Part shown: positions 34,188 to 36,870 of the stretch, one piece after another
Numbering within the stretch: position 1 is the first letter of the stretch
Layout: each line of letters begins with the position of its first letter
NCBI RefSeq assembly: GCF_006442545.2
Contig: NZ_CP083952.1
Location: 2,287,501 to 2,351,500, forward strand
Reading direction: 5' to 3'
Source of the DNA: Mesorhizobium sp. B2-1-8
Lineage (GTDB): Bacteria; Pseudomonadota; Alphaproteobacteria; Rhizobiales; Rhizobiaceae
Length of the DNA: 64,000 nucleotides
Translations under genes and position numbers: made by a program
Notes under the pieces: model-generated
Told to the model about the DNA's origin: nothing
What the model saw: only the letters and a program-made list of their open reading frames with translations
Database searches by the model: none

Positions 34188-35714
<1,527 letters not shown>

Positions 35715-35828
35715 TTTCGATTTCTCTGGTCTGTCCGGAAAATCCGGCTCGATGCACTTTGTCGGTGCGCGTGCCGGCGATCAGGCCAGGCGTTGCACAC
35801 CACGAAGGGCAGACCAAAAAATCGAAGC

Positions 35829-35880
35829 GGGAAAAAACCCGGACCGTCCCTGGTCAGCCCTGCAAGCTAGCTCGCAGGGC
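35829..35880 (-). promoter_or_regulatory. Probable transcription attenuator before the ABC-F gene
   Basis: On the minus strand a 7-bp hairpin (GCCCTGC/GCAGGGC, 35880-35874 with 35863-35857; loop contains AGCTAGCT) covers codons 16-23 of the leader ORF, ending just before its stop. Then come GACC/GGTC and CCGGG followed by TTTTTT (35837-35832). Alternating hairpins plus a T-run placed after a short ORF and 115 bp before the gene fit translation-coupled attenuation. The exact alternative folds were not computed. Confidence 0.55.
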
Positions 35881-35925
35881 AGAAATCGGGCCACGCTGAC
35901 GATGGTGACGAAAAAACGTAAACAC
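35854..35925 (-). CDS. Putative 23-residue leader peptide of the ABC-F gene
   Basis: A GTG at 35925 has a perfect ribosome site, GAAAGGAGGG, ending 6 bp upstream (35940-35931). The ORF starts MFTFFRHHRQRGPIS and ends LQG-stop at 35854. Aromatic and basic residues dominate the first half. A hairpin overlaps its last eight codons. The strength of the ribosome site is out of proportion for a random short frame. Role inferred: ribosome stalling or slow translation here would alter folding of the downstream attenuator and switch on the ABC-F gene. Confidence 0.55.
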   Translation of the reverse strand: MFTFFRHHRQRGPISALRASLQG

Positions 35926-35964
35926 GTGAGCCCTCCTTTCGAGACGTTCGAGTGTGACGACTGG

Positions 35965-36870
35965 CTACACCAAAGGCGGGGCGGATGGCAAGGGCGCCGC
36001 TTTCAAGCGGCGCGGGAAGGGATCCAGCACCAGTATGCAGCCGCCGATGATCGCCGCCGCGCCGAAGCCCTGGATCATGGTCAGAGACCCGCCGAGCACA
36101 ATCGTTCCGGCCAGCACCGCGATCGTGGTCACGGCGAATTCGACGCTGATCGTCCTGGTCGCGCCGATGCTGGCCACCAGTCGGAAATACACGACATAGG
36201 TCAATGCGCTCATCACGCAGGCCAGTATCGCCAAATAGAGGAAGTCGACAAAGCGCGGCATGGCCGGCACCGGCACAGCGAGCAGCAGCGGCAGCGTCAT
36301 CACGCCGCCAAACAGGAAGGCGGCGCTGGTGAGTTCCAGCGAGCCGGCCGACCGCAAATGGCGATTGGCGTAGTTGCTGCCGAACGCCGCCGAGAAGGAA
36401 CTGAACAGCGAGGCGGCACAGCCGATCGCAAAGGAAGCAGTGACCGGAACCGCGGGGAAACCGACCAGGACGATGATGCCGGCAGCGCCGAGCAGCAGCC
36501 CGACAAGGCCGCGAACAGTGATGCGTTCAAGCCCCCAGAGCTGGCCGATGATCATCGAGAACAGCGGGATCGCGGCAACCAGGATGGCCGCCATCGCCGT
36601 GCCGATGCGCGGCGTGGCGTAGGACAGGCCGATCAGCTGCGCCGCGACCGTGGTTGCGCCGACCATGGCGAAGTGCCGCCAGCCAGCGCTGAAATCCAGC
36701 CGTCGCCTCGTCGCGGCTGCAAGCAGAAAGAGCGTGATGCCGGCGATCAGCGAGCGCAAGGTGACCGCGCCGACCCAGCCAAAGGCATGCACCACCTTGA
36801 GCAGCACCAAGAACGACAGTCCCCAGGTGACGGCCAGGAAGACGTAGGCGGCGATGTCCTTGCGGGTCAT
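35965..36870 (-). CDS. EamA/DMT-family transporter
   Basis: 301 residues, ten membrane helices arranged as two EamA repeats (MTRKDIAAYVFLAVTWGLSF opens the first; FSSFSAAFGSNYANRHLRSA begins the second). Likely an inner-membrane metabolite exporter; substrate not predictable. The ATG at 36870 begins the first helix; the frame is open to 37287 but that part is not membrane-like and is rejected. It ends about 40 bp before the ABC-F leader, so it could contribute readthrough to it. Confidence 0.88.
   Translation of the reverse strand: MTRKDIAAYVFLAVTWGLSFLVLLKVVHAFGWVGAVTLRSLIAGITLFLLAAATRRRLDFSAGWRHFAMVGATTVAAQLIGLSYATPRIGTAMAAILVAAIPLFSMIIGQLWGLERITVRGLVGLLLGAAGIIVLVGFPAVPVTASFAIGCAASLFSSFSAAFGSNYANRHLRSAGSLELTSAAFLFGGVMTLPLLLAVPVPAMPRFVDFLYLAILACVMSALTYVVYFRLVASIGATRTISVEFAVTTIAVLAGTIVLGGSLTMIQGFGAAAIIGGCILVLDPFPRRLKAAPLPSAPPLV

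Follow-up and report, generated by a model that had tools for sequence, protein, structure and literature searches.

A conserved Gly-Pro leader ORF, probably a translational attenuator, upstream of an ABC-F gene in Mesorhizobium and other Alphaproteobacteria

An ABC-F gene on the minus strand of a 64,000 nt stretch of the Mesorhizobium sp. B2-1-8 genome (here called the window) is preceded by a short leader ORF that, judged by comparison with related loci, is real and conserved well beyond the genus. The leader probably serves as an ermC-type translational attenuator operated by the ribosome. The initial annotation had proposed a leader peptide and attenuator upstream of the ABC-F gene, and this is borne out by codon-level selection, covariation within the leader hairpin and a close link to the ABC-F family. 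As a general mechanism, attenuation of transcription is unsupported, since the T-run of the candidate terminator is rare in distant relatives and its stem is weak; a better account is pairing that conceals the ribosome-binding region of the ABC-F gene.

The leader ORF (35854..35925, minus strand, as are all features described here) begins with GTG and has 23 codons and a TGA stop at 35854, giving the peptide MFTFFRHHRQRGPISALRASLQG; its pN/pS is described below. The Shine-Dalgarno sequence, AAAGGAGGG, lies at 35931..35939, with 6 nt between AAGGAGG and the GTG, and both elements are just as initially annotated. Among 228 unique leaders, 215 match GGAGGG at 5 or 6 of the 6 bases. The Gly-Pro codons, at 35887..35892, are the proposed stall site from their spacing to the stem. 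The leader hairpin (35880-35857, -19.1 kcal/mol) covers exactly the last eight codons, as had been reported, but it has 10 bp and a CTAG loop, not 7 bp. Beyond the stop lies CGGG-TTTTTT-CCCG (35828..35841), a candidate terminator; the T-run occupies 35837-35832 as annotated, but the GGG is at 35840-35838, one base from the position given, and the T-run is about 117 nt, not 115, from the ABC-F start codon (ATG at 35714). A scan of 2.03 Mb, made up of the window and 120 loci fetched by the leader pattern and read on both strands, gave 116 instances of the complete layout of a Shine-Dalgarno sequence, a short ORF with GPxxA[LP] and a stem of at least 8 bp; all of these lie at this leader or no more than 300 nt from an edge of the locus, and none elsewhere. 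No match was found among 4227 Rfam families (whole window at the gathering score, and 35600-36000 at E up to 1), and PADLOC holds no family for the leader peptide. A search for sigma-70-like promoters in 35500-36200 found none. The leader start is preceded, at a distance of about 40 nt, by the end of a gene for an EamA-like transporter (PF00892, 37287-35965), and because of this proximity the leader may be read from the transporter transcript.

The distribution of the leader was surveyed at 305 loci with an ABC-F match. The leader itself was used to fetch 204 of these, 88 found in the genus through their leader DNA and 116, out of 120, found in named genomes through a leader pattern; since they were chosen by leader, they show how the leader varies and which gene follows, not how frequent it is. 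The argument for a link between leader and gene is carried by the remaining 101, which were fetched by the ABC-F protein: 39 from the family, 54 more from the order and a further 8 from the class. ABC-F protein matches were detected in 39/199 genomes of the family, 63/397 of the order and 9/289 of the class, with one genome (G210), in which the match begins at a contig end, left out of the order set. A sample of the phylum gave matches in 17/299 genomes, all 17 of the same class and mostly already sampled. When the leader was defined as an ORF of at most 40 codons with GPxxA, 296/305 loci carried one, including a hit at L326 that is due to chance by eye; a stricter earlier rule gave 225/305. 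Among loci fetched by ABC-F, the window included, 95/101 have the leader (38/39 in the family, 51/54 in the order, where 52 were flagged and L326 removed, and 6/8 in the class).

The leader is absent at L336 and L326, but is visible at L171 and L276, which are cut by the locus edge, and at L193, which was missed by the rule. At L341 and L152 the hairpin is kept and Gly-Pro is absent, its core being replaced by RQPVRAP or RHLSAL (translated by eye). The ABC-F protein of L334, a locus without a leader by the rule, is 38% identical to the query. Loci L016 and L331 come from one genome (G021), where the leader is intact and the ABC-F match spans residues 236-506 only. Leader DNA was matched in 89/99 genomes of the genus; eight of the ten others have no ABC-F gene at E 1e-100, two of these being incomplete assemblies (G024 at 90% and G067 at 79%), and the last two (G041 and G054) have the gene along with a diverged leader. 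In G004 (L085), a damaged leader is fused to a remnant of the ABC-F C-terminus, and leader and gene are decaying together. The pattern search of named genomes returned at least 120 matches, and the taxa named among those listed are Rhizobium, Ensifer, Bradyrhizobium, Roseomonas, records titled Rhodobacteraceae, Acidisoma (Acetobacterales) and Nisaea (Rhodospirillales). The Rhizobiales, in which the leader had been placed, do carry it, but in view of the last four of these taxa that setting is too narrow.

The 228 unique leader ORFs (L326 and L085 excluded) encode 193 peptides. In 94 representatives, pN/pS over codons -6 to +3 is 0.50 for the reading frame of the leader and 1.46 and 1.35 for the two frames shifted from it, and by this measure selection acts on the peptide encoded ahead of the hairpin. 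Sequence comparison thus places a short ORF under coding selection upstream of the ABC-F gene, and codon-level conservation in relatives, which the initial annotation had named as a check on the leader together with hairpin covariation, is present. The invariance of Gly, Pro and Ala as residues is by construction, because the rule requires all three, but the choice of codons is not: Gly is encoded by GGC (170), GGT (47), GGA (9) or GGG (2), and Pro by CCC (94), CCT (61), CCG (59) or CCA (14), while the first codon of the stem, Ala, is GCC in 228/228 and the next is CTG in 220/228. The residue preceding Gly is R in 177, H in 18, F in 17 and Y in 8; the one following Pro is V in 145 and I in 44, and is usually not P. 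The peptides are mostly of 21-24 residues with 5 to 22 (mostly 9-12) before Gly, and irrespective of peptide length the distance from the Gly codon to the start of the hairpin is in most cases 12 nt. The spacing was also seen from an anchor independent of Gly-Pro, the strongest upstream hairpin, which has GGNCCN 9-16 nt before it in 158/181 distinct loci and exactly 12 nt before it in 129/181 (background per position, 0.6%); in the 23 loci lacking GGNCCN at that spacing, another hairpin is mostly the strongest. The extreme of five residues before Gly comes from L262, by its start call, and that leader has a weak Shine-Dalgarno sequence. In L354 and L159, leaders of the RxLQHGP type, the ATG lies far from the Shine-Dalgarno sequence, and in L354 translation might begin at a CTG two codons further upstream.

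The RNA can be divided into four segments. Segment 1 (35871..35880), defined by folding and covariation, is the 5' arm of the leader hairpin and lies within the ORF, while segment 2 (35849..35866) consists of the 3' arm (35866-35857) and the bases after it, and has two possible partners, segments 1 and 3. The region 35945-35715 folds below its shuffles (z = -3.8, 0/200 as low). Among 95 representatives that are at most 80% alike, 75 could be used for helix 1:2, in which 98.0% of cells are paired and 35 two-sided changes occur, compared to 8.6 in shuffles; 0/500 shuffles did as well, and this permutation test, like those given below, is inflated because related sequences share history. Helix 1:2 is the sole helix recovered by RNAalifold, and so the hairpin overlapping the leader ORF, as in attenuators of the ermC type, shows the covariation proposed as a check.

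Segment 3 (CGATTTTTTGGTCTGCCCTT, 35805..35824) was identified by complementarity and likewise has two possible partners, segment 2 and segment 4, the latter (35712..35736) being the ABC-F ribosome-binding region with its ATG; in the fold of minimum energy, segments 3 and 4 are paired. In the window, helix 2:3 is calculated at -20.5 and helix 3:4 at -24.7. Helix 2:3 has 89.6% of cells paired versus 88.1% in shuffles and 30-57% in slid controls, values to be read in the light of segment 3 having been chosen by its pairing to segment 2; there are 3 two-sided pairs versus 3.2 in shuffles (covariation 14/500), and RNAalifold did not recover the helix. Complementarity of 2 to 3 reaches 5/100 or better in 73/95 representatives, and when cognate segments were compared with swaps, 70/2000 swaps were as good over all loci, 0/2000 for the 46 loci below 66% ABC-F identity and 98/2000 for the 36 loci below 60%. 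Helix 2:3 is, from these comparisons, conserved but barely covarying. For helix 3:4, which is hard to align, the cognate pairing is at -17.67 kcal/mol versus -15.16 kcal/mol for swapped partners (94 loci; 0/2000 permutations as good), so that the main-gene ribosome site is paired as in ermC-type systems; the 9-nt core alone reaches 5/100 in 29/95. The joint score of 2:3 and 3:4 exceeds all 40 shuffles in 35/95 representatives, where about 2 are expected. The modelled accessibility of the ribosome site across 94 loci is 0.363 natively versus 0.445 with a shuffled spacer (p 7e-9), and with segment 1 masked it becomes 0.414, an increase exceeding that seen in shuffles (p 1.6e-6). With masking, accessibility rises by at least 0.1 in 24 of the 94 loci and falls as much in 5, with a median gain of 0.026, and in the window it goes from 0.19 to 0.22. 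The modelled opening is small, and a switch would therefore need kinetic, co-transcriptional trapping.

The ermC attenuator works by a four-segment scheme, and the leader described here would operate in a similar way. By default it would be translated through, helices 1:2 and 3:4 would form and the ABC-F start would be hidden. A ribosome that halts when the Gly codon is in the P site and the Pro codon in the A site would cover the first bases of segment 1, leaving segment 2 to pair with segment 3 as the RNA emerges; by the ermC scheme, segment 4 would then be freed and ABC-F made, and the product would clear the stalled ribosomes. In a study of vmlR, a 30S subunit with a start codon in its P site gives a toeprint 16 nt beyond the first base of that codon (PMC9226507). 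The predicted ribosome edge is at about 35876 with the Gly codon in the P site and about 35873 with the Pro codon, and it is because this edge falls inside segment 1 that the halt is placed at Gly-Pro. The trigger would most likely be a ribosome-targeting compound met in soil. A more specific version, which we put forward tentatively, is that a disturbed peptidyl-transferase reaction, whether due to a natural inhibitor or to lack of the ABC-F protein, is the sole condition under which ribosomes halt on the Gly-Pro leader, that the halt, through attenuation at the level of translation, opens the ABC-F gene, and that it does so across several alphaproteobacterial orders. If true, the leader would be a new type of arrest peptide and a bait for finding the natural compound.

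If, as first envisaged, transcription were attenuated by an intrinsic terminator that includes the GGG-TTTTTT run, this would be in keeping with the ABC-F leaders listed in PMC12421871, which in the accessible part of that paper act on transcription, and the T-run does follow the leader hairpin in 9/10 close representatives (ABC-F identity of at least 80%). It is found in just 5/85 of the more distant ones, however, and the candidate stem has little stability (-8.1 kcal/mol), with GGG standing between it and the Ts. A single terminator-like site was found versus 0.6 expected in shuffles, which is not above chance, and the combination of intrinsic terminator and anti-terminator seen in transcriptional ABC-F attenuators is not a conserved feature of these leaders. 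The terminator was rejected as a general mechanism and is improbable as the explanation of the leader; given the contrast between close and distant relatives, it may at most be an added layer in the close relatives of the window. Transcription could also be affected through Rho, with a translating ribosome covering the leader. Such a uORF-dependent system, with Rho proposed, has been reported for a DUF1127 gene in a related bacterium, Sinorhizobium meliloti (according to the accessible text of PMC12218461), but it would leave unexplained both the complementarity to the ABC-F ribosome-binding region and the spacing from Gly-Pro to the stem, and appears unlikely here.

Translational attenuation might instead operate without any drug, as a homeostatic loop in which the Gly-Pro leader pauses the ribosome by itself and the ABC-F protein relieves the pause; the gene would therefore sense its own activity or that of EF-P-like helpers. 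The RNA evidence fits such a loop equally well, and MsrD is described, in the accessible part of PMC10314930, as suppressing its own induction. Gly-Pro before the stem also resembles the ends of arrest peptides of the RAPP type, in which a Pro-containing core is present at the halt (RAPP, RGPP, RAPG and RAGP in ApdA, ApdP, ApcA and SecM, with RAGP that of SecM; accessible text of PMC12992588), and RGPP is close to the RGPV that is common in the present leaders. These differ from the RAPP-like peptides in that the residue before Gly varies, V or I and not P usually follows Pro, and the target gene is another one, and the five residues before Gly in L262 are short for an arrest sensed in the tunnel. 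On balance the drug-free loop is rather unlikely. An amino-acid attenuator sensing a shortage of arginine or histidine is suggested by the many Arg and His codons of the leader, but these form no long run and are sparse in several families (MTLFFYNRSTSFGP, MRFDFLPNLSHGP) in which Gly-Pro stays, and the target is not a biosynthesis gene; we regard it as highly improbable. Selection on the part of the peptide before the hairpin would equally be expected of a free small peptide acting in trans. The leaders of L159 and L302, however, stop directly after Ala-Leu and those of L153-L155 two residues later, all with the hairpin retained, and the leader accompanies one gene, making this very doubtful.

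The preferred reading, a translational attenuator operated by a halted ribosome, has its nearest parallel in ermC/ermCL, where a ribosome halted on a short leader ORF refolds the mRNA so that the ribosome site of the main gene, otherwise hidden, becomes accessible (accessible text of PMC10219788). It differs in the peptide, in having an ABC-F target and in being alphaproteobacterial, and stalling would be a predicted property. In vmlR of Bacillus subtilis, a leader ORF likewise controls an ABC-F gene, whose Shine-Dalgarno sequence is hidden by a hairpin, but the leader is the tripeptide MIN, inducers stall initiating ribosomes and there is an intrinsic terminator (as far as described in PMC9226507), whereas the present leader, mostly 21-24 residues long, has an internal Gly-Pro and no conserved terminator. 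The leader peptide MsrDL stalls ribosomes and so induces the ABC-F gene msrD, by transcription attenuation at a Rho-independent terminator (accessible part of PMC10314930), and a likeness in stalling is proposed. Inducible ABC-F leaders, such as those of vmlR, msrD and the ARE5 genes, are Gram-positive and mostly transcriptional in the available portions of PMC10314930, PMC12421871 and PMC9226507. No description of a leader of an alphaproteobacterial ABC-F gene was present among the literature matches listed, with most subscription papers outside the scope of the search, nor in the accessible text of PMC13410324, PMC10117765, PMC8632094, PMC2965389 and PMC13159725. A Gly-Pro leader acting on translation across alphaproteobacterial orders would, if true, extend the logic of ABC-F leaders to a class many of whose members live in soil or with plants, provide a ready reporter for compounds that stall alphaproteobacterial ribosomes, and make directly testable what environmental ABC-F proteins protect against.

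The ABC-F gene itself (34188..35714) has 508 codons plus a stop and encodes two ABC domains with Walker B catalytic glutamates (E149 and E441). Its top NCBIfam model is the ribosomal protection-like ABC-F (NF000355), with 295.9 bits, which is below the curated cut-off of 380; Sal (214.9), PRK15064 (203.9), PRK10636 (197.6), Uup (191.2) and EttA (181.7) score lower. Four more open frames in the same genome each have two matches to the ribosomal protection-like model, and protein matches place relatives of the ABC-F gene on twelve plasmid records, including those of Sinorhizobium meliloti and Ketogulonicigenium. Downstream of the gene (34083-33458), a HigB-like toxin (PF05015, 4.5e-17) comes first and a helix-turn-helix protein (PF01381) next; from their sequences, the two are likely to be a toxin-antitoxin pair.
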